Of a DNA stretch of 64,000 nt, positions 2,258-63,580 are shown piece after piece. Within the stretch, counting starts at the first letter, position 1. Every line of letters starts with the position of its first letter. The stretch is from Deroplatys truncata (Eukaryota > Arthropoda > Insecta > Mantodea > Mantidae). The notes below the pieces were generated by a model, which searched no databases, was not told the DNA's origin, and was given only the letters and a program-made list of their open reading frames with translations. Location of the stretch: positions 77,615,833-77,679,832 of the forward strand of contig CM060987.1 of the NCBI GenBank assembly GCA_030765065.1. The letters are read 5' to 3'. A program made the position numbers and the translations under genes.

Positions 2258-3004
2258 TACTTCAGGTTAATTGAAAAAGCCCTAGCAGGAAAGCTATTAT
2301 GACACATTTCGTTTTAGGTACAAGGTGGATACGGGAAACCAAACCTATAATCTGATGTTTAAAAGCGGGTCCCTATGTGTTGGCTTTGAAATTTGGTACT
2401 CTTTCGTAGGCATAACAAAGAATAACTCAGTGGTGAGGATTTTAAACGAAGACTTACGTATTAAAAAATTCGAACAAATAATAGTTGTTTCGGAAGTGGC
2501 TGAGGCCACAAAAATAATTATTAGAAATAAATTGTGCATTTTAAAAGGATTTTCCGTGCAGTGAGTTCTTGACTATCTCTTATGGTTTACTAATTATTAA
2601 AACTATAAAAATTATATCCAAATGAAGAGGACTTCACAGACTATCCCCAGAAAATTCAAGATATGTATACAATTTGTATTGTAAATATCTTAAGTATATG
2701 ATATTATTATTAAAATGCATAAAGCCATGGGTATTACTTAAAAATTTATTGCGCAACTTTGGAAAATTTTGAATTTAACGACACCAGGTTTGGTATTTAT
2801 CAAAATCTATCCATTTTTACGAGTAGTTATGCTGTAGTTATGCTGCTGACAGACGCAAGCATACGGATCTTTTTCTAAAAATGTTTGTTTTCGGATTTAG
2901 GGTGCTTCAAAACCTTTATTTACGGGAAAACCTCGATGTCAAATTTTTGGGTGGAATTAAATACTTCCTCTACCTACTGGGTAATTGTAGAGAAAGTATA
3001 AACA

Positions 3005-3605
3005 TGTGATGTTTTACATTCACATGAATTTCTCTACTCACTAATATTTATTGTTATGCAGGTTCTACAATATATTCCTGCAAAGTTTATTCCTGTATTT
3101 CAAGTTAATTGAGACAAACGTTTTCATAAATAGTATTATTACACATTTCGTTATAGGTACACAGGGAACAGCTATAGTCATATGTTTAAAAACTGGTTGC
3201 TATATATTGGCCATGAAATTCCATGATAACGTGTGAAACAACCGAAGATTGTCATTTCTTCAAAAAATGAAATAAGTTATTGAAAAATTCAAACGAAGAA
3301 CAACGTAAGTCTTGGAAATGCCTTTATAATCAAAACGTTATTTGAAACAAATTATGATTTATGATTTATCAGGTTATAAAAATTATATAACATTCAGTTT
3401 GAATGCAGAGGACTGAACAGTATATTCCCAGAAAATTCAGAGTACACATGTTATCTATCTTGTAAATATCTTAAATAATATGTGGTGTAAAGCCATTTTT
3501 GACAAAATAAAATACATTTTATATTTATTCAGGGGGCCTTGGTGAAATCTCGACTTGGAATTTTTGGTTGGAATGCAACACTTCTACCTGTAGGCAGAGT
3601 AAAAA
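3005..3605 (-). mobile_element. Family A copy, internally shortened
   Basis: It directly abuts the previous copy. The 3' end 'acattcacatgaatttctctac' is near 3,015 and the 5' end GCAGAGTAAAAA near 3,605. The microsatellite-bearing part is missing: the text jumps from the 'gacaaaataaaa' block to 'tattcagggggcctt' near 3,530. The high divergence suggests an old copy. Confidence 0.75.
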
Positions 3606-6890: not shown

Positions 6891-7740
6891 ATCTGATGTG
6901 TTACACTCACATTACTTTCTCTACTCTTGTACTAACTATTTTTACAAACGCTTATTCTCCGTCTGCTTCATGTTAATCTAGATAAACTTATTGTAATTTT
7001 CTTGTAGGTGCAAGGGGAATATGGTAGGCTTTAAGCGATAGTCAAATCTTTTAAGGGCTGGTTGCTATGTGGAGCATTCCATTCTCTTTGCATGTCCAGG
7101 ACATAAAAAAACGAATATTGAATTCTCATTTGAGAAAAAGTATTAAGTATTAGAAAATTGAAACAAATAACAAGGAATATCTCGGAAGTGGTTTTCTTGA
7201 CAAAAAATAAATAAAAGGTATTCGTCAAAAATTGTGTGTTTTAAGGATATCTACATTTTTTGTGCAGCGAAATTTTGTCTATCTCTTACGATTTACCAGA
7301 AACTACAGTTTCATTCAGAATGAACAGGACTTTTAGCGACATTCTCAGAAAGTTTAATATATATATTTTATTTGTCACGAAAATATGTTAAATATATGAT
7401 ATTTTAATCAAAATCGTTTGCGCCATTTTTTATAAAATAACAATTTTCGAAAAATGTTTCATGTAAAGTATAGTCTGGGGTGAGGGATTTTCTTGAAGAT
7501 CTTCCTGTGTCATCTTTGAAAGATGCTGAATCTAAATACCATGTTTGGTATTTATCCGACTTTTCGTTTTTGAGTTATGCTGTTCACATACACACAGATA
7601 CACACGGACCTTTTTCTAAACATGCTTTTCTTGGAATCAGGGCTCTCAAAACATGTATTTCCGGTGAAATCTCGGTATCGAATTTTTGGGTGGAATGCAA
7701 TACTTCCCCTACTTACTATACGTAGTAGAGAAAGTAAAAA
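6891..7740 (-). mobile_element. Family A full-length copy
   Basis: Both ends are present. The 3' end (complement CTGATGTGTTACACTCACAT, which holds the 5 bp hairpin stem) is at 6,892. The 5' end GTAGTAGAGAAAGTAAAAA is at 7,722-7,740. The length is 850 bp. The microsatellite is short here (ACACACAGATACACAC near 7,590). The open frame at 7,480-7,725 is a shadow of the repeat and is shared by other copies; I do not regard it as a gene. Confidence 0.85.
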
Positions 7741-8189: not shown

Positions 8190-8247
8190 TTTAAATATTA
8201 CGTTTGGTATTTTTCCGACTTATTTTATACTGTTTAAATATAGACAG

Positions 8248-8290
<43 letters not shown>

Positions 8291-8425
8291 GACCCTTTTT
8301 CTAAAAAAGTTATTTTTTATTCAGGTTCAAAGCATGTATTTCATTGAAATACCTCTATCGAACTTTTCGGTGGAATGCATTACTTCATTTATCTCTATAA
8401 GTGCTAGAGAATAAAGAAATATATT
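8190..8425 (-). mobile_element. Family A 5'-part fragment with (CA)n expansion
   Basis: This fragment holds 'acgtttggtatttttccgac', then a pure (CA)n tract at about 8,249-8,288 at the usual microsatellite site, then the 'tatttcattgaaatacctc' block and a worn 5' terminus. The (CA)n tract is one of the longest in the window. Confidence 0.7.
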
Positions 8426-10400: not shown

Positions 10401-12229
10401 ATGAATACAAGTAAACTCAACATCATTAATTAAAATTTTAAACAGTATTTTGAGCTCCATTGTAAGGGTTAGAAGAGGGGGAATAAAGTTAGAGAGAGTT
10501 AAAGAAGAAAGAGACCTTGGTAGTTAGCGTAACAACCGAGCAAATCTGTGCGTTCTGTTCCTCGCAGTTACTGACTAAGTGCAACAAAATTATAACTTAC
10601 TGGTGCCCCAACCTTTATTATGGATGTTGTTCCATTCGAAATCATTAAACATTAAAAGTGCAGTGATCACGCTTAAACATTCATAAATATTAAACACACG
10701 CTCATAAATATAACAGAGATTGTCTAATTTTATATTAGCACGACATTTGAAACAAATTTTGGATCACATTTAGTAGTTTCATGACAGAGAAAGCTTGATT
10801 TATGTAATCCTAATAATAATTACGACATATAAAGCTGCAGGAGGGTAACATTGACATGCGTGGTGAAAATACCTCCCCTAGCCAAGTCCCAGGAATAGAC
10901 AACCAGCTTCACATCCGCGTATGACACCCAAAATACAAATGGAAATAAGTGGGAATGCTGCGCCGAGGGAAAGCGGTGGAAGAAATCCAAATGTAACCGT
11001 GTGTCATCTTTTCACCACCTCTGGTAGAGTATATTCCTGGTTGTTCTTGGTTAGCTGCTTCTTTGGTCCCGGGTGTGGAACTGAAGATAAGAGAACTACA
11101 CACGGTAACAGGATATTCTATACAACATCGCGTTTATATGCACTTTGATATTAATTCTGACTGCCCTAAATGATTTATATGCAAAGTTCACCTTACACGC
11201 GTTTTCTGCTACAGTTAACTCTTCTTGCTTCCTCATCCTCGACAATATCTAACCGACTAAACACAAACTGAATTTTCCCAGCCTTATTTTTCCACATGCT
11301 TTGTATTTTCTTCCCAGTTACTCTTTTCACAGCTTTGGATCAGTAATTTCAACAATCGTTTCTCATTTATTACTTTCCTTCTAGCATTCATAATAATATA
11401 TTAGCCTTAATACAGCAACTATTTTGCTAAATACCTGTGCATCTTGTGCATAAGTATTTTCTGGAACCTTATACAAGCCTGAATAAAAGATTGAAGCTTA
11501 CTACTGCTGAGCCTAGCGTGAGAAAAATACCTTTCTAACAACATTTAAGCCTCCCAGGAGAGGGTCAACTTAGTCCCCATCGGCACTATTATCATTTCCA
11601 TTGCATTAGTTGTTTACGCGTTTTATACTCATTGCAAGTTACGCTTCCAGTTATTTGTTTTAAGCCACTGCTGTTTAGTGTTACCGCAATTTCTGTACCA
11701 TTTAATCCTTATTTCTTTCTTTGTTAAGTTCATCAGGTTCATTTGTTGTATAAACTGATATTGATTTTCTCATTAGACCCTAATTTTAGCAATCATTAAG
11801 ACGTACCTTCACTTGCTTCCTTATATCTTCATACCCTATGTTATCTTGTCGCGGCTCTAAAAAATGTCCTTGTAAACGTAATTTTTGTTACTTAATGCTC
11901 AGATGCCTATAAACGTATTGTTAGAGCAATATTTTCTGAAGCTTAATTTACAGATCAAATTTGAATATTCTTTATCGTCAGTCATCATGCGTTTGCAGTA
12001 CCTCAGAATTACTCCTTATATCTCTTTTTACTCCTGCTCAAATTTCTATTTCCTCTTAATTTAAAATCTAAAATAACAATAGGAAAAAGTTTAATTTCTA
12101 TCATGAGGAATGCATTTTAGGTGATTTATTCAGACGCTCCCCTTCATTTTTATTTCATTATTTGGACTTCCTTTTTTCAACTATTTCTTATAAATTACTT
12201 TATTATTTTCTTTCCCGATCACTCATGTT
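10401..12229. other. No gene seen
   Basis: This long AT-rich stretch has no supported gene. The open frames near 10,909-11,148 overlap on both strands and have no recognisable domain. The stretch between 10,850 and 11,130 is somewhat richer in GC and could be a worn repeat, but I see no A or B box. Confidence 0.5.
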
Positions 12230-13215
12230 TTGGGGCCCCTGAATCCAAAACAAGCATTTTTTAGAAAAAGGTGTGCGCGTTTGGATATGTGTCTGTGAAC
12301 AGCGTAACTCAAAAACGAAAAGTCGGATAAGTGCCAAACTTGGTATTTAGGTTTAGCATCTCTCAAAGAAGCGACACGGAGGTTTTCAATAAAACCCCCA
12401 ATCCCAGACTACTCTTTACATGGAATACTTTTTTTAAAAAATGTGATTTTCTCAAAAATGTCTCTAACAATTTTGATTAAAATATCATATATTTAAGATA
12501 TTTTAATGACATAAGATGTATATCTTGAATGTACTGGGAATAGCCTGTGAGGTTGTCTTCGTTCGAAAGAGTTTTTTGTGATTTTATATATTGAGTAAAC
12601 CAAACCATAAGAGAGAGAATAAAACTATATACACAAAAAACTTAGATCTCCTTAAAACACAATTTAATTCAAATAACGTTTTTGCAGCATACGCCATTTC
12701 CGAGATAAGCGTTAATATTTGTTTGAATTTTTCAATAATTTGTCATTTTCTTTTGAAATGTTGTTCCTATTCTGGTGTTTCTCGCAACATCATGGAAATA
12801 CCGGAATTATAAGGCCAGCATATAGCGTATTGTTTTTTAAACATCTGACTGTCGATTCGGTATCCGCCACCCTCCTAGTACCCACACGAAATTTATAATG
12901 CAACTATTTTTGCAAACGTTTATCTGGATTAACTGGAAGTAGATAAAAAAAAGAAACTTTCGTCAGAATAGTTTGTGGAAATGCAAATAAGCGATAGTAG
13001 ATTTTTCTCGTCATAATGCAAGAAGTATGGAATTTCAGTCAACACATAGCGATCCGCTTCTTAAAATTCTGACTTTCACTTTAGCCCACTATACCTACAG
13101 CGAAATTTGTAATGAAGGTTTAACTTGATTAGCAAGAAATAGATGAAAGAATAAGCTTTTGAAAGAATAATTCGTAGAAGAGTGAGTAGAGAAAGCAATG
13201 TGAACGCAACACATA
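12230..13215 (+). mobile_element. Family A copy with duplicated 3' end
   Basis: It starts at 'ggggcccctgaatccaaaac', so the extreme 5' end is missing. The '…cagcgtaactcaaaaacgaa' and 'gccaaacttggtatttagg' blocks follow. A first 3'-end region (12,740-12,990) has 'gcaaacgtttatctgg'. A second, tandem copy of the same region (12,995-13,215) starts 'tttttctcgtcataatgc' and ends GAGTAGAGAAAGCAATGTGAACGCAACACAT. The high divergence makes this an old copy. Confidence 0.75.
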
Positions 13216-13984
13216 TATTTTAAAAGAACTATATGAACATTGATCACTATCATACTATTACAGCAGTCATATTTTCAAAGTTTTAGCACATGTTAAAGAT
13301 TATTGTAATTTCTGTTGTGTAGCCATGATACAGATTAACGCGTATTAAAACACCACATGATTTCTCACCAATACCTACTAGGTAGGTTACAAGAGTTGAT
13401 TCTGAGCATCCTCAAAGATTGGAAAATACGTGGAGACTAAATGCAACTGGTACCTACTTGTTGCTTAATATATAATCTTAATTAAGATCTTATTTGCAAA
13501 CTTAAAATTAACTTAACTTTTAATAAACGAAAATGTAATAACATCTTAAATTGTTGCACCGGTGTTTCACTCCTAAATAAGTCGTGTCTAATATAATCAA
13601 GCAGCGGTGTATTCGACCGTTCCTCCTAGGACTTTCTTTCGATCCTGATAAGGAAAATTTCCCTGGAGGTTTCTTCCTTTCTGCCTCCTGACACGGATGA
13701 ATATGCAATGCGTCCTCAAACTCTATCTCAGTAGATACACTAGAGTAGGAGAGATTTTGTGGTGATTACTCAAAATTTAAAAGTATTAAACATTTTATTC
13801 AGTAACTTCAAGACAATCTTTTGCCTATAGATGTTGCACTTTAAGGGTAACTTACATTGCTGCAAGTACTTTATATTATTTTCTCTTCTACTTATGCAGA
13901 GGGGTATTGTAGTTTATTCCAAACAAAAAGTCTATACCTAGATTTCCTGGAAATATGCGCTTTGAGACTCCCTGAAAGAAAAAA
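13216..13984. other. No gene seen
   Basis: AT-rich, with a slightly GC-richer patch at 13,590-13,720 that I do not recognise. No gene is supported. Confidence 0.5.
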
Positions 13985-14395
13985 TATCTGACGTGTTGCA
14001 CTCACATGGCCTTCTCTACTCTTGTACAAACTATTTTTACAAACGCTTATTCTCCATCTACTTCATGTTAATCGAGATAAACAGAAACTCCCTTGTTGCT
14101 AATTTTGTTGTAGGTGTAAGGGGAGTATGGGGGCTTTAAGCGATAGTCAAATCTTTTAAGAGCTGATCTTAAATGTTTGGTATTTTAATCAAAATTGTTA
14201 GAGCCATTTTTGAGATAGTGGAAAATTTCGAAATAATTTCCAAGTAAAGCGTAGTTTGTGACGAAGGTTTTTTTTAATCTTCATGTCGGATCTTTGGAAG
14301 ATACTAAACTTAGATATCAAGTTTGTATTTATCGAACATTTTAGAGTTATGCTGTTCACAAACACACACACGGACGGAAATTTTAGAAAAGTCTG
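13985..14395 (-). mobile_element. Family A copy, deleted inside and truncated
   Basis: The 3' end (complement TCTGACGTGTTGCACTCACAT) is at 13,987. The copy skips from 'tcttttaagagctgat' to 'tatttggtattttaatcaaa' near 14,170, which is an internal deletion. It stops after the short microsatellite (ACACACACACGG) near 14,375. Confidence 0.75.
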
Positions 14396-14461
14396 CTTGG
14401 TTGCCTTCACATTCAAACTTCAACAACTTATTTATACAATACTCTTCCGAAGATATTTCGT

Positions 14462-14918
14462 ATAATTGTTATAACTGGTAAACTATTATAAATTAACAAA
14501 TACTTGTAAGTTAAAAGTATAGAGCTCTTTAAAACATATCTGCAATTTGTTTCAGACAACTTTTTTACGGCATCAGCCGTTTCCGAGATATCTGCTGTTA
14601 TTGATTTGAATGTTTCATGACTTTCGCCATTTGTTTAATGATGTAATCGTTCAGTTGTTTCTTACGATGTCATGGAAAGAGTAAGGCATTTCAAGGCCAG
14701 CATTTAGCGACTCGCGTTTGAACAATGGACTCTCGCCTCTCTCCCCTGCAACTTCTTGTATATACCTGAAGCGATATGTGTAATGAAACCATTTCTGCAA
14801 TTATTTATCTCGATTAAAATGTAGTAGATAGAAAAACAAGATTTTTTAAGAATAGTTTGCAGAAGCAGCATAAAAGTAAAGTAGAAAAACTCAGGTGAAT
14901 ATGACGCCATGTGCCTTC
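14462..14918 (+). mobile_element. Family A 3' half fragment
   Basis: It has the later part of the family: 'cggcatcagccgtttccgag', 'caaggccagcatttagcga', 'tttatctcgattaaaatg', and an end AGTAGAAAAACTCAGGTGAATATGACG. It belongs to an older subfamily and lies in opposite orientation to the fragment on its left. Confidence 0.65.
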
Positions 14919-15546: not shown

Positions 15547-16455
15547 ATTTTTACTTTCTCTGCCACGTGCCTAGTAGGTGGAGAAAGTACCGTGTTCCAA
15601 CCAACAATTTGATATAGAGATTTCACCGGAAATACATGTTTTGAGCCCACTGAATCCCAAAAAAAAGCTTTACTAGAAAAAAGTGTGTGTGTGGTGGGCG
15701 TGCACTGGTGCTTGTGACTGTGAACAGCATAACCCAAGAAGGAAATACCCGATAAATACAAAATTTAGTATTTAAGTTCATCATCTTTCAAAGTTGCGAC
15801 ACGAAGATTTTCAAGAAAATGTCCCCACCCCAACTACCCTCCCACTTATATGGAAGTTTTTCGAAACGTTCGATTTTCAAAAAATGGCTGCAACGGTTTT
15901 GATTTAAATACCGTATACTTAGGATATGTACAGGAGAATAAAAGGCATATCAGGAATTTTCTGGAAGTAGCCTGTGAAGTCCTCTGCATTCGAAAGGAAT
16001 GTTATGGTTTTGTGCAAGTCATAAGAGATACAGAAAAAGTACCTTCTACCACAAGAAATGTATCTCTTTAAAACACACAATTCTTTTTCAAATAAATTTT
16101 TACAGCATAAGTTGTTTCCGAGATATTCGTTGTTTTTGATTTGAAGTTTTCAATACTTTGTTTTATAAGTGCTGTCGCTATTCAGTTATTTCTAGCGATA
16201 TCATTGAAAAGAGTAAGGAATTTCTAAGCCATAATATAGCCACTATTTTTAAACATCTCACCAGCGATGCGGTTTCCGCTATCCCCCTTATACCTTCAAC
16301 GAAATCTGTAATGAAAATATTTCTACAAGGGTTTATCTTGAAGTCGATCTCGAAGAAAAATAAGCTTTCGTATCAAGAGTTTGTGGAAGTCTTATAAAAA
16401 TAAACGATGGAAGGTAGAAAAACTTATGTGAATGTAAAATATCAGATTTTCTCTC
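15547..16455 (+). mobile_element. Family A full-length copy, older subfamily
   Basis: The 5' end TTTTTACTTTCTCTGCC is at 15,547, the core 'gatttcaccggaaatacatg' near 15,625 and the microsatellite (GTGTGTGTGTGG) near 15,683. The 3' end 'aacttatgtgaatgtaaaat' plus ATCAGATTTT is at about 16,425-16,450. The flanks are 'acaga' plus T on the left and 'tcaga' plus T on the right. It has many substitutions relative to the copies at 18,174 and 50,527. Confidence 0.8.
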
Positions 16456-17992: not shown

Positions 17993-18173
17993 TGAATTTA
18001 AAATACATAGAATATACGCCCATACCTCGGGGCAACATGTTATAATAATTCCTTAAATTATGAACCTATTTAAAGTCGGTGCAATATTTGAACGTATAGT
18101 AAATTAAATTTCCTTGAAGAGTAAATTTCGTGAACGAGATATACTTCATCACATATTTGCAATATAAGGCTTA

Positions 18174-18990
18174 TTACTTTCTCTACTACGTATAGTAAGT
18201 AGGGGAAGTATTGTATTCCACCCAAAAATTCGATACCGAGATTTCACCGGAAATACATATTTTGAGACCCCCTGAATTCAAAAAAAGCATTTTTGGAAAC
18301 AATTCCGTGTATTTGTCTGTGTGTGAGTGTCTGTCTGTCTGTCTGTGAACAGCATAACTCAGAAACGAACAGTCGGATAAACGCCAAACTTGGTATTTAG
18401 GTTCAGTATCTTCCAGAGATGCGACACGAAGGTTTTCAAGAAAATCTCCCCACCCCAGACTACCCTTTACATGGAACATTTTTTTAAAATTTTAATTTTT
18501 TCAAAAATGGCTCTAAAATATTATATGTTTAAGATATTTTCATGACAAATGAAATGTATATCTAGAATTTTCTGGGAATGTCTCCAAAAGTGTTCTTCAT
18601 TGTGAACGACTTTTGCATAACTGGTAAACCATAAGAGATAGACAAAATGTTACTGCACAAAAATGTAGATCGCGCTAAAGTACACAATTTATGTCTTATA
18701 CATTTTTTTTTGTAGAGTGAACCATTTTCGAGATATATAATACTTTTTCTCAAATTCTTTATTCACTTTTTTTATGTCCTGGACATGCAAAGAGAATGGA
18801 ATGCGCCACATAGCAACCAGCGTTAAAATATTTGACTATCGCTTAAAACCTACCATATTCCCCTTGCATCTACAAGAAAATTAGCAATAAGATTGACATT
18901 TCGATTAACATGAAGCATATGGAGAATAAACGTTTGTAAAAATAGTTTGTACAAGAGTAGAGAAAGTCATGTGAGTGTAGCACATCAGAT
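18174..18990 (+). mobile_element. Family A full-length copy, younger subfamily
   Basis: The 5' end TTACTTTCTCTACTACGTA starts at 18,174. The microsatellite (TGTCTGTCTGTCTGTG and neighbours) is at about 18,313-18,347. The 3' end AGAGTAGAGAAAGTC followed by ATGTG, AGTGTAG, CACAT (hairpin) and CAGA ends at 18,989. It is followed by a T run. It resembles the copies at 37,506 and 50,527 closely, which suggests recent activity. The open frame at 18,186-18,479 is shared with other copies but has no known domain. Confidence 0.9.
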
Positions 18991-32955: not shown

Positions 32956-33054
32956 TGCCCCTAAAGCAGAGATGCGTAAGCAACAATGCGTATGTAATTA
33001 AAAGGAATCGAGAAATTACCTATTCAAATAGTTTCTGTATCATCTAGCATTGTT

Positions 33055-33786
33055 GAAAAGGTTCTATGTGTATGTGTCTGTATGGATGTCTCTGTATCTG
33101 TGAACAGTAACTCAAAAACAAAAAGTTGGATAAGTATCAAACTTGGTATATAGGTTCAATATCTTTCAAAGATGCGACACGAATATTTTCAAGAAAATCC
33201 CTCCCACCCCAAACTATCCTTTACATGGAAAATATTTCCAAAATTTTGATTTTCTCAGAAATGGCTCTAACGATTTTGATTAAAATATATGTAATATTTT
33301 CATGACAAATAAAACGTATATCTTGAATTTTCTTGGAATGTTCCCAAAAGTCCTCTTCTTGCAGAATGAATTTTGCATAACTGGTAAACTGTAAGAAATA
33401 GAAACAATTTTTCTCTACAAAAATGTAGAGCTCGTTAAAACACACAATTTATATCATATACTTTTTTTGTTTGTTCTGTGGATGGAATCATTTCCAAGCT
33501 ATTTCTCGTTATTTGTTTGAATTTTCCAACAATTACACTTTTTCACAAATGGGTATTCGTTATTCGTTTTTTAATACCCTGGAAATGCAAAGAGAATGGA
33601 ATGTTCCACATAGCAACCAGCTCTTAAAAGATTTGCCTATCGCTTAAAGGCCTACCATATTCCCCTTGCACCTACAAGAAAATTAGCAATAAAATTAACA
33701 TCTCGATATCTCGATGAACATGAAGTAGATAGAGAATAAGCGCTTATAAAAACGCAGACAAAGTCATGTGAGTGGAACACATCAGG
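33055..33786 (+). mobile_element. Family A copy, 5'-truncated
   Basis: It starts in the microsatellite region (GTGTATGTGTCTGTATGG). It continues through 'aaacttggtatataggttca' and 'atgcaaagagaatggaatg' and ends GTCATGTG, AGTGGAA, CACATCAGG with the terminal hairpin intact. The GAAAATATTTCC stretch and other changes suggest medium age. Confidence 0.8.
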
Positions 33787-37450: not shown

Positions 37451-37505
37451 AAAAATAATTGATGTTAAAGGGGAATATTGTGAAAGACAATAAAATCATT
37501 TTAAT

Positions 37506-37638
37506 TTTTACTTTTCCTACTACGTATAGCAAGTAGGGGAATATTGTATTCCACCCAAAAATTCGATACCGAGATCTCACCGGAAATATAAGTTTTGAGA
37601 CCACCTGAATAAAAAAAAGCATTTTTGAAAACAGGTTC

Positions 37639-37701
<63 letters not shown>

Positions 37702-38391
37702 CCTGTGAACAGCATAACTCAGAAACGAACAGTTGGATAAACCCAAACTTGGTATTTAGGTTCAGTATCTTCCAGAGATGCGACAAGGAGGTTTTCAAGA
37801 AAATCCCCCTACCCCAAATTACCCTTTACATGGAAAATTTTTCGAAAATTTTAATTTTCTCAAAAATGGCTCTAACGATTTTGATTAAAATATCATATGT
37901 TTAAGATATTTTTATGAGAAATGAAATGTATATCTCGAATTTTCTGGGAATGTCTCCAAAAGTATGCTTCATTGTGAACGACTTTTGGACAACTGGTAAA
38001 TCATACGAGATAGACAAAATTTTACTACACAAAAAAATGAAGATCGCGTTAAAATACACAATTTATGTCATATATATTTTTGTTGTTGAGTGAACCATTT
38101 CCGAGATATTGCTTGTTATTCCCTTAACTTTTCCAACACTTTTTCTCAAATGGGAATTCGTTATTCATTTTTTTTACGTACTGGCCATGCAAAGAGAATG
38201 GAATGCGCCACATAGCAACCAGCTCTTAAAGGATTTGACTATCGCTTAAAAGCTACCATATTCCCCTTTCATCTACAAGAAAATTAGCAATAAGATTAAC
38301 ATCTCATTAACATGAAGTAGATGGAGAATAAGCGTTTGTAAAAATAGTTTGTACAAGAGTAGAGAAAGTCATGTGAGTGTAAAACATCAGA
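37506..38391 (+). mobile_element. Family A full-length copy with long (GT)n
   Basis: The 5' end TTTTTACTTTTCCTACTACG is at 37,506. A (GT)n tract of about 60 bases (37,642-37,690, then GC-rich 'gcgcgcgcgtgcc') lies at the microsatellite site. The 3' end is AGAGTAGAGAAAGTC, ATGTG, AGTGTAA, AACATCAGA at 38,391; one stem pair of the hairpin is changed. The open frames through the (GT)n tract give His-Thr or Cys-Val repeats and are not genes. Confidence 0.9.
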
Positions 38392-39649: not shown

Positions 39650-40518
39650 TCATGGCGTTCTCTAGCCTCTATCGTTTACTAATAGGTATACAAGTTATTC
39701 TTACGAAAGCTTGTTTTTCTATTTAATTTTAATCGAGATAAACCTTTGCAGGTAGCTATATTACAATTTCGTTATAGATAGAAAGAGAACAGCGATAGTC
39801 AAATGTTTAAGAACAGGATGCTATACGCTGGCTTTAAAATTCCATACTGTTTCCATGTAGTCGTGAGAAACAACTGACATTGGACAGAACCTTAAAATAA
39901 TGAAAGTACTAAACAATGTTAAAACATTAATAAGGAATATCTCGGAAATGGTTATGCTACAAAAAAGTTATTTGAAATAAGTTGTTTGTTCTAAAGAGAT
40001 CTACATTTTTGTGCAATACGTTTTCGTCTATCGCTTAATGTTTACCAATAATACAAGATTATATAAAGTTACTTCCGAATGAAGAGGACTTCACAGGCTA
40101 TTCCCATAAAATTCAAGATGTGTGTTTTATTTGTGGCATAAATATGTTTAATGTATAATGCTTTAATTAAAATCGTTAGAGCCGTTATTCAGAAAATAAA
40201 AAATTTCTAAAAATCTTCCACAATAAAGGGCAGTTTGGTGTTGGGAGATTTTCTTGAAAACCTTCTGCCCCACCTTTGGAAGATACTGAACTTAAATACA
40301 AAGTTTGGAATATATTCGACTTCTTGTTTTAGAGTTATGTTGTTCATAGACACACACAGATAGACAGACACACGGATACACAATCGGATCTTTTTCTAAA
40401 AACGCGGTAGTTTTGTTTCTACTTCAGGGGGACTCAAAACTCATGTTTCCGGTGCAATTTCCATATAAAATTTTTGGGTGGAATGCAATATTACGCATTT
40501 GGTAGAGAAAGTAAAAAT
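39650..40518 (-). mobile_element. Family A copy, older subfamily
   Basis: The worn 3' end is around 39,655-39,720 ('attttaatcgagataaacc'). The body has 'cgttatagatagaaagagaa' and 'cagcgatagtcaaatgttt'. The microsatellite (ACACACACAGATAGACAGAC) is near 40,350. The 5' end GGTAGAGAAAGTAAAAA ends at 40,517. Confidence 0.75.
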
Positions 40519-41461: not shown

Positions 41462-42463
41462 ATTTTTACATACTCTACTACAAGGGTGGCGAAAACGACT
41501 TCCTTCCGCGAGTCACCAAATATGCAACACGCACTGCATCACTCAGCAGCATGTGAAAAACAAAGGAACGGTTGCAGAGAGGTAACCGCCTGGGAGTCAA
41601 AATGACTTACGAGTCACGTTTTCGCCACCTCTGCTCTACTACATATGGTAAGTAGGGGAAGTATTGCAGTCCACCCAAAAATTCGATACCAAGATTTCAC
41701 CGGAAATACATGTTTTCAGCCCCCCTGAAATAAAAAAGCACTTTTATGAAAAGGTCCGTGTGTGTGTCTGTCTGTAAACAGTATAACTCAAAAACGAAAA
41801 GTCGGATAAAACCAAATTTGGTATTTAGGTTAAGTATCTTTCAAAGATGCGACGAAGATTTTGAAGAATATCCCCCATCTTACATTACCCTTTACATGGA
41901 ACACTTTTTGAAAATTTTAATTTTCTCAAAAATGGTTCTAACAGTTTTGATTAAGATATCATATATATATTTAAGGTATTTTCATGACAAATAAAATGTA
42001 TATTTTGAATTTTCTGGGAATGATCCCAAACGTCCTCTTGTTTTTGAATGGTTTTTGCATACTGGTAAACCGCAAGAGATAGGCAACATTTTTTACGCAA
42101 AAAATGTAGAGATCGTTAAAACATACAATTTATGTCATAAATACTTTTTTGCAGAGTGAACCATTTCCCAGATATTCCTTGTCATTTGTTTGAATTTTCC
42201 AATACTTATACTTCTTCTCAAACGGGAATTCGTTATTCCGTTTTTATGTTCTGGTCATGCAAACAGAATGGAATATTCCATTTAAAAGATTTGACTATCG
42301 CTTAAATCCTACCATATTCCCCTTGTACCTACAAGAAAATTAGCAATAAGATAGTTTCTGCAAATGTTTATCTGGATTAACATGAAGTAGACAGAGAATA
42401 AGCGTTTGTAAAAATAGTTTTTACAAGAGTAGGGAAAGTCATATGAGTGTAACACATCATATC
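41462..42463 (+). mobile_element. Family A copy carrying a hAT MITE in its 5' terminal repeat
   Basis: The 5' terminus 'tttttacatactctacta' (41,464-41,480) is split from 'catatggtaagtagggg' by a 153 bp MITE. The microsatellite is short (GTGTGTGTCTGTCTG near 41,760). The 3' end AGAGTAGGGAAAGTC, ATATG, AGTGTAA, CACAT ends near 42,460. Confidence 0.85.
41481..41633. mobile_element. hAT-type MITE, 153 bp, with 8 bp target duplication
   Basis: The ends CAAGGGTGGCGAAAACG and (complement) CAGAGGTGGCGAAAACG are hAT-like terminal inverted repeats. CTCTACTA occurs at 41,473-41,480 and exactly again at 41,634-41,641, the 8 bp duplication typical of hAT. The interior is non-coding. Confidence 0.92.
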
Positions 42464-47139: not shown

Positions 47140-47345
47140 GTAGCGTTACCTTGGTAACACGTGAGGCTCGTACTCGGGATCCCCGGGACGAATTCCACCA
47201 GGACCGTCCTGCCCCACAGGTTTTTTTCCCCCATGTTTTCCTCATAAGTGGCAAATGTTTCCTTCCCCAAATTCCTACCCATATATTATTTCATTGTATG
47301 TATCACCAGTGGCCATCGCCTGTGGTGCCATATGCAGTAAGAACG
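47140..47345 (+). mobile_element. SINE related to the one at 6,640
   Basis: The tail 'atttcattgtatgtatcacc' and 'gcctgtggtgccatatgcag' matches the tail at 6,835-6,885. The head has 'aacacgtgaggctcgtactc' and 'gatccccggga', a worn tRNA-like head. Confidence 0.55.
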
Positions 47346-49465
47346 TGTGTTAAACACTTCTTAAAAAAAAAGAACATCCGCTAATGTGAACAAGTTCAAT
47401 ATTTTTCTTCCTCAATGAAATTTAATTTAAACCGACTATCTATGTCCTGCTGTCAGAGAGAACCTACAGTGCAGTTTATCATCCAATCCAGCTATGAAAA
47501 ACAGTTTAATTGCTTCAAACCTCTACCACCACCACCACCACCACTACTACTGGGTTATTTATTTTTATAATCTACATTATTTGTTTCTATATTATTACAG
47601 AGTATTAGTACTCTTGAGTAAACTTATGCTTTGGATTATATTAAATGCTAATATCATATTAACATCTAATACCCAACGGTTGTTACGTTATTGAAAGATA
47701 AATTTATCGTATTCATTAATTTTGTCTCATTTTAAGCGCGCATAACTCCGGAACACTTTATTTTAGAATATTGTACCAAATTTCATTTTGTAGATAAAAG
47801 TCCGCATTTCAATTCAGCATATGCCAATTATTTTTATATTCACAAAACTGTACATATAGTTTTTACTTATTTTAAAGCGTCTCCGGATTTTTATAAAACT
47901 AAAATATTATATTGAGAATAATCCATAGTGTCATTAAGAGAATCCGGCAATGTTAGAGTGTTCGTAGTTATAGGACAAAAAGTGAATAAATGCAGCGATT
48001 TACCTGGTTGACGCACGTATATCAAAGCACTCTGTGAATCTGCAAGGAAATACTTAGAATCGCATACTGCATAGTAAGCGTTGTCATTGTTTAAACCTTA
48101 CGCACATCAGCTTGCTTGACGTTCAGTTCAAAACAAACGTGCGAGAGCGACCATGTGTACGTATTTTACTACTCCCATGCATGAAGTAATTTGCTTTTTT
48201 AATTATTTTAGACGAATCCTTATCAGTAAGCATTACAGTAAAATATGTATTTGTATTTAAATTACGGAATCTTACCATATATAATAAAGTTTTTTTTCTT
48301 AATCCTTACTCCTACACTTGAAAAAATAGAAATTTGTTTACTTAAATAAAAATAAGAACACGTTTACTTATCAGTATCAAAATAAAGCTCTATTTAAATA
48401 ATTAGATTTAAAAGTTTCAGAGTTATAACAGCTTGGAGTAAGGAAGTTTAGGAAGATACGATACGATAAATTTTAACAATCTTAATGGCAAAACGATGAT
48501 GTTTTGAATTTTAAGAGTTTGCATAAAGAATTGTATCGGGCTTTTCTCCAATTACAAAAACCTTCGTTACGTTTAAAAAATGCAAGGTCGATTTTCCTTC
48601 TATTTCGAACGATCTGAAATGGAATATCTCGTATGTAGATAGCTCCTTTCTTAGGTAGAAATTGCACTTTGACTCCTTAATCAGTTTAAAGTTATTTTTA
48701 AACAAAAGTAAAGATATAAAAATAAAATACACATTTGCATTATCCTTTTTTGTCAGTAAAGTATAACAGGCAATCCTAATGGATCGCTGTACTTAATATA
48801 AATGTCTGAAAAAAGAGAATCTAAATAATGACATAGCTTACATTAGCTATGAATAACTAAAAAACACTTTTCACATTGTTTTAAAACAGAGCTTTTAACC
48901 AGGAAAACCAAAATGTTCTTTCTCTGTGCTGGCTACCTTTAGTTAAATATATTTAAGTTGTAAAAAAGCATATGTCAAACCTGTTTCCACCATTTGCTTA
49001 TAGCACTATTAAAGAAGATAAAAAGAGAAGAGAAATATGTTTCGGTTGTGCCATTTATGCTACGAACTGGAATTTGCTCATTCGCCATTTGAGAGGTTAG
49101 GTAACGGCTCAATTTCTTCGACCATGAATACTACTGGACTGCGCATGACCTCGTGTTATTGAAGACAGCGTGAGATCAGCTGTTTGCTGGAGAGCGGATA
49201 GCCGAAGCAAAATGTCTAGCGCTGCGTTTTGCTCATTTTTGCATGTTTATAGCTTAAATTAAGCAAATACTCGCATGTATCAGATCTCGGGTGTAAATGA
49301 GCCTAAAAAATACAGGTGCACTATGTAGTTACATAAGTGTGAATTTTCAGGTTAGGTGTGCAATGATAGTGTACTTCAAAAAATGTTTTCACAAATATTT
49401 CTATAACAGTCATGTCTGCATCCGGCACACTATAAATTTCGTAAATGATTGTTAAAACGTTAAAA
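47346..49465. other. No gene seen
   Basis: Very AT-rich with short CAC/ACT repeats at 47,525-47,552. Short open frames have no recognisable domain. Confidence 0.5.
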
Positions 49466-50433
49466 ATCTGATGTGTTTCACTCACATGACTTTCTCTACT
49501 CTTGTACAAACTATTTTTACAAACTCTTATTCTCCATCTATTTCATACTAATCGAGATAAACATTTGCAGAAACGATCTTTTGACATGCAAAGAGAATTA
49601 TATTTTAAACATAGTGACCAGTTCTAAAAATATTTGACTATGGCTTAAGGCCTACTAAGTTCTCCTTGTTTTGTATTTGCAAGGGCAATATAGAAATACA
49701 GTAGCCTTTAAACATCGACATATATCCTAATAGCTGGTTGCTAGCTGCAGCACCATTCTCTTTGCCACAGATTAATACTCTTTGCATATCAAAGACAAAA
49801 AAATGAATAACGAATTCCCATTTGAGAAAATAAGTATTGAAAAATTTAAGGGAATAACATCAATATCTCCAAAATGGTTCACTCAACAAAAAAAATGTAT
49901 ATGATATAAATTGTGTATTTTAAAGCGATCCACATTTTTTGTGTAGTAAAATTTTGTTTATGTCTTATGGTTTACCAGTTATGCAAACGTCGTTCACAAT
50001 GAAGAATACTTTTGGAGACATTCCCAGAAAATTCAAGATATACATTTTATTTGTTATAAAAGCATCTTTAGCATATGATATTTTAATCAAAATCGTTAGA
50101 GCCATTTTTGAGAAAATTAAAATTTTCGAAAACTTTTCCATGTAAAGGGTAGTTTGGGGTGGGGGGATTTTCTTGAAAACCTACGTGTCGCATCTCTGGA
50201 AGATACTGAACTTAAATACCAAGTTTGGTGTTTATCCGACTGTTCGTTTCTGAGTTATGCTGTTCAGACACAGACTCACAGACACACAGACACACACGGA
50301 CATGTTTCCAAAAATGCTTTTTATGGATTCAGGGGGTCTCAAAACATATATTTCTGGTGAAATCTCAGTATCGAATTTTTGGGTGGAATACAATACTTCC
50401 CCTACTTACTGTACGTAGTAGAGGAAGTAAAAA
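49466..50433 (-). mobile_element. Family A copy with an internal inverted duplication
   Basis: The 3' end (complement TCTGATGTGTTTCACTCACAT) is at 49,467 and the 5' end GTAGAGGAAGTAAAAA at 50,418-50,433. Between 49,570 and 49,668 the block 'gacatgcaaagagaat' to 'ctaagttctccttg' lies in the opposite orientation to the rest of the copy. The proper-orientation version follows in worn form. The microsatellite (ACAGACTCACAGACACACAG) is near 50,275. Confidence 0.8.
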
Positions 50434-50526: not shown

Positions 50527-51420
50527 TTTTTACTTTCTCTACTACGTATAGAAAGTAGGGGAAGTATTGCATTCCACCCAAAAATTCGATACCGAGATTT
50601 CACCGGAAATATATGTTTTGAGACCCACTGAATCCAAAAAAAGCATTTTTGGAAACATGTCCGTGTGTGTGTCTGTGTGTGTGTGTGTCTGTGTGTGTGT
50701 CTGTCTGTGTGTGTGTGTGTCTGTGAACAGCATAACTCAAAAACGAACAGTCGGATAAACACCAAACTTGGTATTTAGGTTCAGTATCTTCCAGAGATGC
50801 GACACGAAGGTTTTCAAGAAAATCTCCCCACCCCAGACTACCCTTTACATGGAACATTTTTCGAAAATTTTATTTTTCTCAAAAATGGCTCTAACGATTT
50901 TGATGAAAATATCATATGTTTAAGATAATGTCATGAGAAATGAAATGTATATCTCGAATTTTCTGGGGATGTCTCCAAAAGTATTCTTCATTGTGAACGA
51001 CGTTTGCATAACTGGTAAACCGTAAGAGATAGACAGAATTTTACTACACAAAAAATGTAGATCGCGTTAAAATACACAACTTATGTCATTTACATTTCTT
51101 TTGTTGAGTGAACCGTTTTCGAGATATTGCTTGTTATTTCCTTAAATATTTCAATACTTATACATTTCTCAAATGGGAATTCGTTATTCATTTTTTTTGT
51201 CCTGGTAATGGAAAGAGAATGAAATGCGCCACATAGTAACCAGCGTTAAAATATTTGAGTATCGCTTATAACCTACCATATTCCCCTTGCATCTACAAGA
51301 AAATTACCAATAAGATTGACATCTCGATATCTCGATTAACATGAAGCATATGGAGAATAGGCGTTTGTAAAAATAGATTGTACAAGAGTAGAGAAAGTCA
51401 TGTGAGTGTAACACATCAGA
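50527..51420 (+). mobile_element. Family A full-length copy, younger subfamily
   Basis: The clearest copy. The 5' end TTTTTACTTTCTCTACTACG is at 50,527 and 'ttcaccggaaatatatg' follows. A compound GT/GTCT microsatellite lies at about 50,661-50,722. Then come 'gccaaacttgg'-type text and 'aaatggctctaacgatttt'. The 3' end AGAGTAGAGAAAGTC, ATGTG, AGTGTAA, CACAT, CAGA lies at 51,389-51,420. At 894 bp it can serve as the reference for the family. Confidence 0.92.
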
Positions 51421-51643
51421 TTTTTTTACGTCCTGGACATGCAAAGAGAATGGAATGCGCCACATAGCAACCAGCGTTAAAATATTTGACTATCGCTTTA
51501 AACCTAGCATATTCCCCTTACATCTACATGAAAATTACCAATAAGATTGACATCTCGATTAACATGAAGCATATGGAGAATAAGTGTTTGTAAAAATAGT
51601 TTGTACAAGAGTAGAGAAAGTCATGTGAGTGTAACACATCAGA
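51421..51643 (+). mobile_element. Tandem extra 3' end of family A
   Basis: Directly after the preceding copy, the last ~225 bp of the element is repeated, from 'acgtcctggacatgcaaaga' to GTGTAACACATCAGA, with the same orientation and few differences. No 5' part is present. Confidence 0.85.
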
Positions 51644-51963
51644 ATTTTTTTTTACAAATCTGACCTTATAATAAAGGTTTGCCATGTGACACAGTGTAAT
51701 ACTTCGAACTAACAGAAAAACAATCTGGTATACTACATTCATTTGACTTTCTGTATCCATTATGGCTTCCTTTTATATAGCTTCTACACACTGTTCTTGC
51801 AAAACAGTATCTATATCATGTTATAGATATAAACGTTTGCAGAATTAGTCTCATTAAACATTTCGTTGTAGGTACATAGGAGATGTTAGGAAAGCGATAG
51901 TCACATGTTTAAATGCAGGCTGCTCTTTGCATAACTTCGCCGGAAACATTTGAATAAAAAAAC

Positions 51964-52783
51964 TCTGATGTATTACACTCGCATGACGTTCTCTTCTCTT
52001 TTACAATCTATTTTTAAAAACGCTTATTCTCCATATCCTTAATATTAATCGAGATGTAAATCTTATTGCTAATATTCTTGTAGATGCAAGGGGAAGTGGT
52101 AGGCTTTAAGCGTTAGTCAAATATTTGCATTACCAGGACAAAAAAAAATGAATAACGAATTTCCATTTGAGAAAAAGTATAAGTATTGGAACATTTAAGG
52201 GAATAACAAGCAATACCTTGCAAATGGTTCACTCAACAACAAAAAATGTATATGACATAAAGTGTGTATTTTAACGCGATCTACATTTTTTGTTCAGTAA
52301 AGTTTTGTCTATCTCTTATGGTTTACGAATTATGCAAAAGTTGTTCACAATGAAGAAGACTTTTGGAGACATTCCCAGAAAATTCAAGATGTACATTTTA
52401 TTTGTCATGAAATTATCTTAAATATATGAGATTTTAATCAAAATAGTTAGAGCCATTTTTGAGAAAATTTTCGAAAAATCTTCCATGTAAAGGGTAGTCT
52501 GGGGTGGGGGGATTTTCTTGAAAATCTTCGTGTCGCATCTCTGGAAGATACTGAACCTAAATACCAAGTTTGGTGTTTATCCGACTGTTCGTTTCTGAGT
52601 TATGCTGTTCACAGGCACACAGACAGACAGACACACAGACACACACGGACATGTTTCCAAAAATGCTTTTTTTGGATTCAGGGGGTTTCAAAACATGTAT
52701 TTCCGGTGAAATCTCGGTATCGAATTTTTGGGTGGAATACAATATTTCCCCTACTTACTGTACGTAGTAGAGAAAGTAAAAAA
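51964..52783 (-). mobile_element. Family A full-length copy, younger subfamily
   Basis: The 3' end (complement CTCTGATGTATTACACTCGCAT) is at 51,963 and the 5' end GTAGTAGAGAAAGTAAAA at about 52,766-52,783. The microsatellite (ACACAGACAGACAGACACAC) is near 52,615. A short piece in the 3' third, where 'gttgctatgtggagcattc' should be, is missing near 52,125. Confidence 0.88.
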
Positions 52784-58224: not shown

Positions 58225-58366
58225 ATTTATTTAAAATCGTCAGAGCCATTGTTTAATAATAAAACGTATATCCTCAATTTTGCTAATAGACTTTGACCTC
58301 TTCATTCTGAATTACTGTTATATAAGTAATTGGTAAACTGTAAGAAATAAACGAAATCTTACTACA

Positions 58367-58402
<36 letters not shown>

Positions 58403-58503
58403 CTGAACATTTTTGTGGAATTTACCATTTGCGAGATATTTCTCATTATTGGTCTGAATTTTCAAATATTTATAACTTCCTCAAGTGGTACGTCACTATT
58501 CGT
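58225..58503 (+). mobile_element. Family A internal fragment
   Basis: 'cgtcagagccattgtttaat', 'taaactgtaagaaataaacg' and 'accatttgcgagatatttct' are the middle of the family, in order. A (TA)n microsatellite (58,371-58,397) has grown within it. Neither end is present; it stops where the next copy starts. Confidence 0.65.
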
Positions 58504-59128
58504 TTTTACTTTCTCTTCCACGTACATAGTAGGAGGAGAAGAAATACATGTTTTGATGTCCCCTGAATAAGAAAGCCGCTTTAGAAAAAGGTCAATGTGT
58601 GCGAGTCTATGAACAGCATAACTAAAAAAGAAAAGTTGGATAAATATCAAACTTGGTATTTAAGTTCAGTATCTTCCGAAGATACAACGGAAAGATTTTT
58701 AAGAAAATCCGTCACTCCAACCACACCTCAGATGGAACATTTCCGAATTTTTTTATTTTCACAAAAGGGCTCAAACAATTTTAAATCAAGTACCATACAT
58801 GAATGATAATTACATGATATATAATGTATATCTTTAATTTTCTGGAATAGCCTGCTAAGTCCTCTTCATTTGGAAATAATTTTTGTATAATTATGTATAA
58901 CTGGTAAACGTTGAGCGATGGACGGATATGTACTTCATCGTAAAATGTACATCCCTTTAAAACACACAATTTACTTCAAATAGCTTTTTGTGGCATAAGC
59001 CATTTTCAGATATCCATTATTAAGGTTTCGAATTGTTCAATTCTTTCTTTAAGTCCTGTCAACATTCAGTTGTTTCTGGCGATTGCATGGAAACTGTATG
59101 GAATTTTAAGGCCAAGTTCTTAAATATA

Positions 59129-60307: not shown

Positions 60308-60489
60308 TATTTGACTACCACTGTTTTCTGGGGGTATCTATAGCGAAATGCATTTTCAGCTATTTCTGCATAGGTTTGTTTCAATTAAAATGAAGTAGAG
60401 AGAAAAATGAGCTTTAGTATGAATAGTTTTTATACCCATTAATAAATGTTAGAGGGTAGAGAGAGTCATGTGAATATAACACATCAGGT

Positions 60490-61010
60490 TTCTTCTTGTC
60501 GTCATACAAAGGGCATGGAATTCCAAAGCCATTATATGGATACATTCTCTTAACCTATTGTATCCTTCTTATGTCTGCAATGAAATATGTAAATATGCAA
60601 TGGAACTTTATTTTGAATAACCAGAAGTAGGTAGAAGAATAGGCGGCGCCGTGGCCGAGTGGTTAGACCGCTTCAATCCCAGAGACCCGCATGTGGGTTT
60701 TGTGGTGGACAAAGTGGCGTCTGGGCGGGTTTTCTCCGGGTTCTCCGGTTTCCCCGGCCATTCATTCCAGCAACTGCTCCATCATCACTTTCCTCCCATA
60801 CCAGGCATCGGGCTGATCACCCATCTTCTGTCTGATCCATGAGTGTCTGCTCCTCGACAGGCCTCTGACCCCAGGCACCCGCCTATAAGTCCTGGGGGTG
60901 TAAGTCATACATAAGAGGAGGTTAAACAGAGAAATAAGAAGATAGAAGAATAATGTTTTGTAAGAGTGGTTTGTGGAAGAGTGAGCGGAAAAAATAAGAT
61001 GTATGCAACT
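60490..61010 (+). mobile_element. Tandem extra 3' end of family A, with a SINE inside
   Basis: Straight after the previous copy, the 3' part starts again ('cttgtcgtcatacaaagggc', 'atggaattccaaagcc', 'aatgaaatatgtaaatatgc'). It is interrupted by a SINE at 60,642 and resumes at 60,943, then ends 'gaagagtgagcggaaaaaat'. The terminal hairpin is worn. Confidence 0.7.
60642..60942 (+). mobile_element. tRNA-derived SINE (Ser/Leu-like head) with target duplication
   Basis: The head GGCGCCGTGGCCGAGTGGTT has a perfect A box and resembles the start of tRNA-Ser/Leu. The body has 'ttttctccgggttctccgg', 'ataccaggcatcgggctgat' and 'ctcctcgacaggcctctgac', ending 'cataagaggaggttaaacag'. The flanks TAGAAGAATA at 60,632-60,641 and 60,943-60,952 are exact (13 bp with one mismatch). 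Confidence 0.85.
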
Positions 61011-61014
61011 TTTA

Positions 61015-61880
61015 TTCTTGCATTAGCCGTTTCCGTGATGTGGGTTATTATCGGCTTTTACCTTCTCTACCATGAACATGGCAGGCTGAGAAAGTAACGC
61101 ATTCTATTAAAACATTGGTTGTCTAAATTTCACCGGAAATACATGCTTTGAGGCTCCCTGAATTCCCCACCAAAAGGGTTTAGAAAAGGCCTCTGTGAAT
61201 TGAGTGTGTGTGTGTGTGCAGCATAGCTCAAAAATGAAATGTCCAATAAATAACAAAGTTGGTATACAAGTTTAGATTTTCAAGCAAATCTCTCTACCTC
61301 CCCCCTTCCTTTAACACAGAATACTGTTCATTATTATTTATTTTCTCAAAAATGGCTCTAACAATTTTGATTAAATTATTTACATCACAAATAAATGTAT
61401 ATCTTGAATTTTCTGGGAATACCCTAAAAGGTCCTCTTTATTCGGAAGGTATTTTCTATAATTGGTAAACTATAAAAGACAGACAGACACTTACTACGCG
61501 AAAGATGGAGATAGTTTTAAACATACAATTGAATTGAAATAACTGTTTTGTAGGATCAGCTATTTCTGAAAAATTCATTGCTATTAGTTTGAATTTTAAA
61601 TAGTTTTTTTTTGAAGTGGCCTCCTTTCAGTTATTTTTCACCATATTATGGAAAGAGTATGGAATTTCAAGGCAGCATACAACGACTCTGTTTTATAAAC
61701 TTTACTATCGCCTCTTTTTATGTATTTTTCATACCTACAACGAAATTTGCAATGAAAGTATTTCTGCAAACGTTTATATGGATTAATAGGAAGTATATAG
61801 ACAAATACCTTTTATAAGAATAGTATATAAAAATAAACAATAGTGAGTACTTGAAGTCACGTGAATGTAACACATCAGAA
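61015..61880 (+). mobile_element. Family A copy, older subfamily
   Basis: A scrap of family interior (61,015-61,050) precedes the 5' end CTTTTACCTTCTCTACC at 61,054. The microsatellite (GTGTGTGTGTGTGTG) is near 61,205. The 3' end GTC, ACGTG, AATGTAA, CACATCAGAA is at 61,857-61,880. Confidence 0.8.
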
Positions 61881-62861: not shown

Positions 62862-63285
62862 TTTTAAATATGAAGTGCTGTCATCATTCAGTCATTTCTC
62901 GCGCTATCATGGAAAGAGTATGGAATTTCACCCTATTATTTTTATAGTATCTACAATAAATCTATCATTTATTACCCAAACGTTTAACACACGTAACAAA
63001 ATTAAAGTTAAGATTATATAACTTACTGTTATTATAATTATAGTGATAATAAATATAGAGTGATCATGATAATATATAAGTTGTTCTATTAGACCAGCAT
63101 ATAACCAGTTTTTAAACATTTGATAATTATCGCTATTTCCTATGTACCATTACAAAATGTTTAATGTAATTATTCATGCAGATGTTTATTTGAATTCACT
63201 GGAAGAATAAGTTTTTGTACGAATTGTTTGTAGAATCTATACAAACTAACAATTTTGGGTAGAAAAGGTATGTGAATGTAACCTA
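62862..63285 (+). mobile_element. Tandem extra 3' end of family A
   Basis: 'tcatcattcagtcatttctc', 'atggaaagagtatggaattt' and, after an AT-rich insertion (about 62,935-63,085), 'accagcatataaccagtttt' and 'ggtatgtgaatgtaacctat'. It continues the tandem series. Confidence 0.7.
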
Positions 63286-63580
63286 TTTTTCAGTATCAAG
63301 TACTGTCATCATTCAGTGGTTTCGCGAGCGGCTATGAAAAGAGAATTTCAACGTCATAATATAGCAACCTGCTTTTAAACATTTGACTATCGCTACGGCC
63401 TCTTGAGCCCCCTTGTGTCTACAAAGAAGTATGTAATGAAACTATTTCTGCAAACATTTATCTCGATTAGCACGAGGTATATAGTAAAATACATGTTTAT
63501 AAGAACAGGTACTAGACGCTATATTAAAATAAAAAATAGTTCATAACAAAGTCATATGAATGTGACTCATAATTTTTAGA
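63286..63580 (+). mobile_element. Tandem extra 3' end of family A, last of the series
   Basis: 'tcaagtactgtcatcattca', 'catttgactatcgctacggc', 'gcaaacatttatctcgatta' and 'gtcatatgaatgtgactcat'. Only the 3' region of the family is present. Confidence 0.7.

Follow-up and report, generated by a model that had tools for sequence, protein, structure and literature searches.

The closest described systems are non-autonomous elements of the Helentron type. DINE-1 (INE-1) of Drosophila, in the account of PMC2374699, carries subterminal inverted repeats (subTIRs) of 13 bp, a partial inverted repeat adjoining the 5' subTIR, a CTGT/GTCY microsatellite in the 5' block, an array of central repeats, and a stem-loop with a stem of 7-11 bp a few bases after the 3' subTIR. 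It has no ORF, reaches a high copy number and is found at TT or T-rich targets. HINE-Mo of a mite and other HINEs (PMC4067079) have 12-15 bp subTIRs, the 5' one a few bases inside the element, and a palindrome close to the 3' end. Some copies contain microsatellites. The targets are T-rich, with an ambiguous assignment of the Ts, and the elements occur in clusters. The mite HINEs, which have autonomous partners, carry the 3' subTIR about 38-60 bp inside the end; their palindrome is about 8-35 bp away from it. The scheme published in the same paper assigns Helentrons to one family if their subTIRs are identical over at least 11 bp, and the Helentron endonuclease is proposed there to nick in poly-T. 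Cg_HINE of the Pacific oyster (PMC7492417) has a 5' subTIR of 11-12 bp with an inverted repeat, a microsatellite in the left flank, a palindrome after the 3' subTIR and T-rich sites without a TSD; its satellite-like central repeats precede a separate right flank of 60 bp. The 3' hairpin of Helitrons is a terminator that can be bypassed (PMC4778049). In plants, arrays of truncated Helitrons (Xiong et al. 2016, as described in the review PMC12628747) contain many 5' ends and a single 3' end.

A repeat family with this kind of anatomy is dispersed over the window analyzed here, the whole 64,000-nucleotide stretch of Deroplatys truncata contig CM060987.1. Judged by its structure, the repeat is very probably a HINE with the architecture of DINE-1, a non-autonomous Helentron-type rolling-circle transposon. 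Like DINE-1, it has subTIRs, 12 bp long here, a partial inverted repeat next to the 5' one, the 5'-block microsatellite, the stem-loop close behind the 3' subTIR, T-rich targets, no ORF and a high copy number. Unlike DINE-1, it has a 5-bp stem, and its copies are without an array of central repeats, the 3' module being doubled in some of them instead. The features listed above for HINE-Mo and other HINEs also recur, including the T ambiguity and the clusters, but the 3' subTIR and the hairpin are 22 and 4 bp from the end. Cg_HINE agrees with the family in the 5' subTIR with its inverted repeat, the position of the microsatellite, the 3' palindrome and the T-rich target sites, whereas the repeated unit of about 225 bp found here includes the whole 3' end. 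The copies and their parts are listed in Table 1.

Table 1. Positions, in window coordinates, of the repeat copies, their parts and associated features
Feature	Position	Strand	Remarks
Copy O	50527..51420	+	full-length reference, 894 bp
5' terminal T5 of O	50527..50531	+	
5' subTIR of O	50532..50543	+	ACTTTCTCTACT
Inverted repeat of O	50554..50565	+	AGTAGGGGAAGT, partner of 5' subTIR in 5' hairpin
Microsatellite of O	50663..50725	+	GT/CTGT
3' module of O	51191..51418	+	T-run at start, 3' subTIR and hairpin at end
3' subTIR of O	51387..51398	+	AGTAGAGAAAGT
3' hairpin of O	51400..51416	+	ATGTG-AGTGTAA-CACAT, then CAGA and T-run
P	51421..51641	+	second 3' module immediately after O
Copy A	1..110	-	cut by window edge
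B2 and copy B	2257..3512	-	old head-to-tail pair: B2 end (3245-3007), then B (3000-2257)
Copy D	6892..7740	-	near-full
Paralogous empty site of D	47287..47368	no strand	
Fragment E	8191..8415	-	5' part only
Copy F and F2	12224..13214	+	old; second 3' module F2 at 13002-13214
G1, G2, G3	13876..14902		minus-strand copy G2 (13987-14378) between pieces G1 and G3 of an old plus-strand copy
Copy H	15548..16446	+	old, full-length
Copy I	18171..18989	+	near-full
Copy J	33045..33786	+	5' part missing
Copy K	37505..38391	+	near-full
Copy L	39651..40517	-	old, 5' inverted repeat deleted
Copy M	41626..42461	+	near-full, first bases of 5' end missing
Copy N	49467..50433	-	near-full
Copy Q	51964..52782	-	near-full
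Q2	51727..51952	-	older 3' module beyond 3' end of Q
Minisatellite	about 55,560-56,250		periods 39, 58, 61, 97
R1 and R	58257..59127	+	old copies
S0 and S1	60309..60644	+	body-less tandem 3' modules, second at 60489-60644
Copy S	61055..61879	+	old, full-length
S2	61902-62080	+	module after copy S
T1 and T2	63094..63570	+	body-less tandem 3' modules, second at 63313-63570

The earlier note's estimate of about 25 full or partial copies is a fair one, and the reference copy that it placed at 50,527-51,420 fits exactly. A profile built from seven near-full copies gives 32 matches at E<1e-3 in the window, of which 30 have E<1e-6; they occur on both strands and span 14,796 of the 64,000 bases (23%). 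The best hit among the controls, which were five dinucleotide shuffles and the reversed window, has E=1.5e-4 and falls in the microsatellite part of the model. With separate models of the body and the 3' module, coverage at E<0.01 is 15,408 bases (24%); the best controls are E=1.7e-5 for the body model (reversed window, microsatellite part) and 0.81 for the module model. BLAST of copy O against the window likewise gives a single family with copies on both strands. The 12-mer ACTTTCTCTACT, with at most one mismatch, has 20 matches in the window, compared to a mean of 0.49 and a maximum of 2 in 100 shuffles.

The near-full copies are 0.82-0.97 kb long. The bodies of copies I, K, N, O and Q are 90-92% identical to each other, and those of D, J and M are 81-84% identical to this group. 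The old copies, H, S, B, L and R among them, are roughly 60-79% alike to other copies. Copies of such different divergence suggest that the activity of the family was spread over a long time. The bodies drift through insertions and deletions. There are five stop-to-stop ORFs of at least 150 aa in the window and none of them fills a copy; the family is without coding capacity. An inverted piece of the 3' module is found inside copy N, at 49582-49669.

The 5' end consists of T5, the subTIR ACTTTCTCTACT, a 10-base spacer and the inverted repeat AGTAGGGGAAGT. The T-run and the 12-bp subTIR, which lies 5 bp from the 5' end, had been recognized in the first reading of the sequence, but the inverted repeat, which forms a 5' hairpin with the subTIR, had been overlooked. 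In an alignment of 13 5' ends, from which L (inverted repeat deleted) and R (58,504) were omitted, the 12 pairs form in 88.4% of the cells, compared to 49-59% with the partner shifted by 1-3 columns. If partners are exchanged at random among the sequences, the mean is 85.7%, and 4 of 500 such shuffles reach the observed value. The same number, 4 of 500, reach the covariation score. The number of pairs changed on both sides is two, which 203 of 500 shuffles reach, so the covariation is modest. Folded as single-stranded DNA, the 5' end has z-scores of -3.1 in O, -3.5 in H and -3.7 in B. The T-run is exactly five bases long in seven of the ten ends tested (A, D, H, K, L, N and O), the exceptions being TTATT in I, CTTTT in S and seven Ts in Q; the tandem or decayed 5' ends of B, E, G1, M and R were omitted from this count.

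The constancy of the start bears on the reading of the repeat as a SINE-like retroposon whose tail is the T-run. SINEs are recognized by a Pol III-type head and by target duplications of variable length. The variable length of the 3' T-runs, and the lack of the 5' part in J, F and the body-less modules, would agree with such an origin. However, ten 5' ends have the same start, both ends bear inverted subTIRs, and eight insertions have no variable-length duplications and none at all outside the Ts. Furthermore, the only tRNA-type matches given by Rfam (at gathering scores) and ARAGORN are at 5,157-5,494, and no copy is located there. A retroposon is therefore a very remote prospect, and the Helentron-type assignment is preferred.

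The 5' hairpin is followed by a block of about 120 bp, by the GT/CTGT microsatellite, whose presence the earlier note had reported correctly, and by a body without long ORFs. Compared to the consensus of the young copies, 18 old segments retain 83% identity over the last 34 positions, 72% over the whole element and 74% over the first 45. The best-kept 20-base window of the old copies is internal (model positions 321-340, 90%). The stretch 50847-50960 of O, about model positions 321-420, has values of 0.78-0.90 per 20 bases, above those of the 5' end (0.74). The 3' module is not a copy of the body: a comparison of the two in O, made for an internal duplication, scores 22, and shuffles reach 28. 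Six pairs of degenerate motifs in the body were compared, and the score of one of them was equalled or exceeded in 4 of 200 shuffles.

At the 3' terminus the subTIR AGTAGAGAAAGT is followed by one base, the hairpin ATGTG-7-CACAT and CAGA. The inverted repeats are asymmetric, as had been claimed, the 3' subTIR lying 22 bp from its end as against 5 bp at the 5' end. The hairpin had been described as kept in most copies; in the young copies it is complete or almost complete, and in old copies it is frequently damaged. It is also weak, being no better than shuffles in all four copies tested (z -0.46, +0.80, +0.32 and -1.24; by copy, -0.5 in O, no fold in H, +0.3 in S and -1.2 in B2). Several of the 19 aligned 3' ends have changes on one side of the stem.

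Canonical Helitrons have 5'-TC...CTRR-3' ends and insert between A and T. A derivative of such an element would also have a hairpin near its 3' end, no clear target duplication and tandem copies. Here, however, the ends are TTTTTACTTTC and CAGA, the insertions are in T-runs, and subTIRs and a 5' inverted repeat are present. The chance that the family derives from a canonical Helitron is accordingly minute, and the Helentron-type structure is retained for what follows.

The two flanks of the insertions differ. The first eight flank bases of 15 3' ends have T in 96 of 120 positions (binomial p=2e-27). Four of these ends (O, Q, S0 and S) have a second 3' module next, and F2, G3, T1 and T2 of the 19 recognizable ends were omitted, their last bases being unclear. 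The eight bases upstream of T5 at ten 5' ends have T in 21 of 80 positions. Both flanks had been called T-rich, which is correct for the 3' side but not for the 5' side beyond the mostly constant T5. If T5 is counted as part of the element, direct repeats of 0 bp are obtained in all ten tests on eight insertions. If the element is counted from after T5, the repeats are 5, 4, 2, 2, 5, 5, 0 and 0 bp in D, H, I, K, N, O, Q and S, respectively, and for the alternative ends O+P and S+S2 they are 0 and 2. The absence of a constant target duplication, as claimed, thus holds outside the Ts, and a TTTTT duplication is compatible with the data. The authors of the HINE study met the same ambiguity about target Ts (PMC4067079).

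The comparison of filled and empty sites that had been suggested for T-T insertion was made with 15 joined flanks of 13 insertions, searched against the window. A match across the insertion site was obtained for copy D alone; it is paralogous, at 47,287-47,368, with 62 of 82 bases identical and no gap. The empty site has one T-rich 5-mer (TCTTA in the orientation of the element), and the filled site has TTTTT twice. In addition, the minus-strand copy G2 is flanked by two pieces of an old plus-strand copy at 13.9-14.9 kb, its 3' end being at the A-run of that copy.

In a different reading, the repeat is a MITE derived from a DDE transposon of the cut-and-paste kind, has inverted repeats in subterminal position, and inserts into TTTTT with duplication of these 5 bp. 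MITEs of DDE transposons are characterized by terminal inverted repeats and a constant target duplication. DINE-1 itself was once viewed as such a MITE, with a TT duplication. Both ends bear inverted repeats, mutated TTTTT would fit most of the repeat lengths obtained when the element starts after T5, and fragments of Tc1/mariner type are present in the window. Nevertheless, the 3' inverted repeat is not terminal but lies 22 bp inside the end with a hairpin beyond it, the 5' T-run is constant whereas the 3' runs vary, tandem copies are joined 3' end to T-run, and host bases other than T are unduplicated in all ten tests. A MITE is consequently improbable, though less so than the retroposon or the canonical Helitron.

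Support for the Helentron-type assignment comes from the anatomy and from the pairing conserved at the 5' end, together with the T-run on the 3' side, the single empty site, the tandem copies and the spread of divergence. The case made by the earlier note is supported by the subTIRs, the 5' inverted repeat, the microsatellite, the 3' stem-loop, the lack of a long ORF, the T-run targets and the tandem copies. Against it stand the weak 3' hairpin, the modest covariation of the 5' pairing, the first 45 positions of the old copies, which at 74% are hardly above the whole element (72%), the 3' subTIR closer to the end than in the mite HINEs, and the TTTTT on both sides, which could be a 5-bp duplication. 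What makes a HINE a Helentron derivative is an autonomous Rep/helicase/endonuclease element bearing the same ends; membership in the Helentrons is structural here and not proven. A Pfam scan of 30 of the 153 window ORFs of at least 70 codons had no Rep, helicase or endonuclease domain; its best match was DDE_3 at 7.5e-6, just under the cut-off, and the others had E-values of 0.0069 or worse. The sequence ACTTTCTCTACT is absent from the 14-row subTIR table of the DINE-1 paper (PMC2374699). A literature search for this 12-mer, with Repbase, supplementary tables and subscription papers outside its reach, returned four papers that contain it, none of them on repeats as judged by title and abstract opening. 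Scans of viral and prokaryotic contigs for exact patterns found 0 loci and carry little weight, being limited to viruses and prokaryotes. The family is new as far as the searched literature shows, and a name for it may already exist.

The window contains several other features. A tRNA-Phe gene is at 5420-5494 (+) and a second tRNA-type match at 5157-5228 (-); both (5157-5494) are within 140-nt inverted arms that are 90% complementary. Decayed pieces of Tc1/mariner-type transposases are found at 1187-2087, with a DDE_3 match (E=7.5e-6) in 1731-2087, and at 34638-35069, where the match to Transposase_1 is much weaker (E=0.22). Two pairs of inverted repeats, at 23724-23856 / 25050-25182 (133 nt, 98% complementary) and 17799-17961 / 24532-24694 (163 nt, 83% complementary), are perhaps other mobile elements.

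For the transposition of the family we infer the enzyme, the strand, the intermediate and the order of the steps, and likewise present or past activity. A Rep/helicase/endonuclease supplied in trans by an autonomous Helentron elsewhere in the genome would recognize and nick the 5' end, formed by T5 and the hairpin of the subTIR and its inverted repeat. One strand would then be displaced as far as the 3' subTIR, hairpin and CAGA end, which would act as the terminator. The displaced strand would insert at the 5' edge of a T-run of the host, with no duplication except possibly of Ts.

The most unusual property of the family is the doubling of its 3' end. A 40-bp end model, built from copies of the same family, recognizes 19 3' ends that belong to modules (B2, D, F2, G2, G3, H, I, J, K, M, N, O, P, Q, Q2, S0, S, T1 and T2) with E up to 0.062, the best control being 1.7. 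There are four further weak matches (E up to 0.03) at 359-378, 905-924, 56,793-56,809 and 62,834-62,858. At five of the 19 ends (O, Q, S0, S and T1) a second 3' module on the same strand begins within 30 bp, and the 3' end of B2 runs within 30 bp into copy B. A sixth second module, F2, sits after copy F, whose own 3' end is decayed and incomplete. Six modules that lack a body (P, Q2, F2, S1, S2 and T2) begin at most 8 positions from the module start, and each of them is located behind another 3' end. A seventh module start, 41 positions only (62,888-62,928), is 30 bp beyond the weak end at 62,858. The junctions are at T-runs or T-rich spots, although not always at the same spot, and the repeated unit, about 225 bp, contains the entire 3' end. 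Thus one 5' end can serve two 3' ends. The plant truncated Helitron arrays (PMC12628747) are similar in being incomplete rolling-circle elements in tandem, but have the reverse arrangement of many 5' ends and one 3' end.

Several origins of the doubled ends were considered. The modules of O and P are 93% identical, those of O and I 94% and those of P and I 95%. O and P are no closer to each other than either is to I, and therefore P is unlike a late local duplicate of O. Nested insertion into an internal T-run was rejected for O-P and Q-Q2, there being no split body on the other side. A two-ended donor with a bypassed inner end, recombination between T-runs, and insertion beside an existing T-run are possible routes. 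The last is favored by the sequences for the pair Q-Q2, because Q2 is far more diverged than Q.

The minisatellite in Table 1 consists of units like GAGTAGAGAAAATCGTATGAATG, which resemble the 3' terminus of the family (subTIR and stem). One unit matches the end model with E=6.6e-6 (22.8 bits), and two more are below E=0.05, although units of one array are not independent. An old 3' end composed by hand, which flatters the comparison, matches the array over 25 bases perfectly with a score of 52. Among the controls, 300 shuffles score no higher than 30, and HINE-free blocks outside the neighborhood of the array no higher than 24; the nearby blocks at 56,351 and 56,701 score 32. Sequence similarity makes a link between the minisatellite and the 3' terminus likely, with derivation in either direction. 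The array is readable as a coding repeat, RENRMNVNGRR, an explanation that is not favored, since the periods 58, 61 and 97 are not multiples of three.

A joint reading of the doubled ends and the minisatellite, offered tentatively and with the odds against it, would make the 3' module, from T-run to CAGA, the growing unit. Rolling-circle copies would often pass a weak first terminator and carry or gain a second module at a T-run, and the same end would have seeded the minisatellite at 55.6-56.25 kb.

The window thus holds a dense, long-active family of Helentron type that makes up about a quarter of its length, with bodies from about 92% to about 60% alike, and the end sequences can be used as bait for the autonomous partner. 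Elements of this kind are already well described, and the doubled 3' ends are the part that deserves a genome-wide look. If the doubling holds across the genome, it would be a natural record of terminator bypass and would provide a way to test Helentron 3' ends as seeds of satellite DNA. If the module is indeed the growing unit, tandem DNA would be born at Helentron 3' ends, along a route that is the reverse of the one reported for the 5'-end arrays of plant Helitrons.
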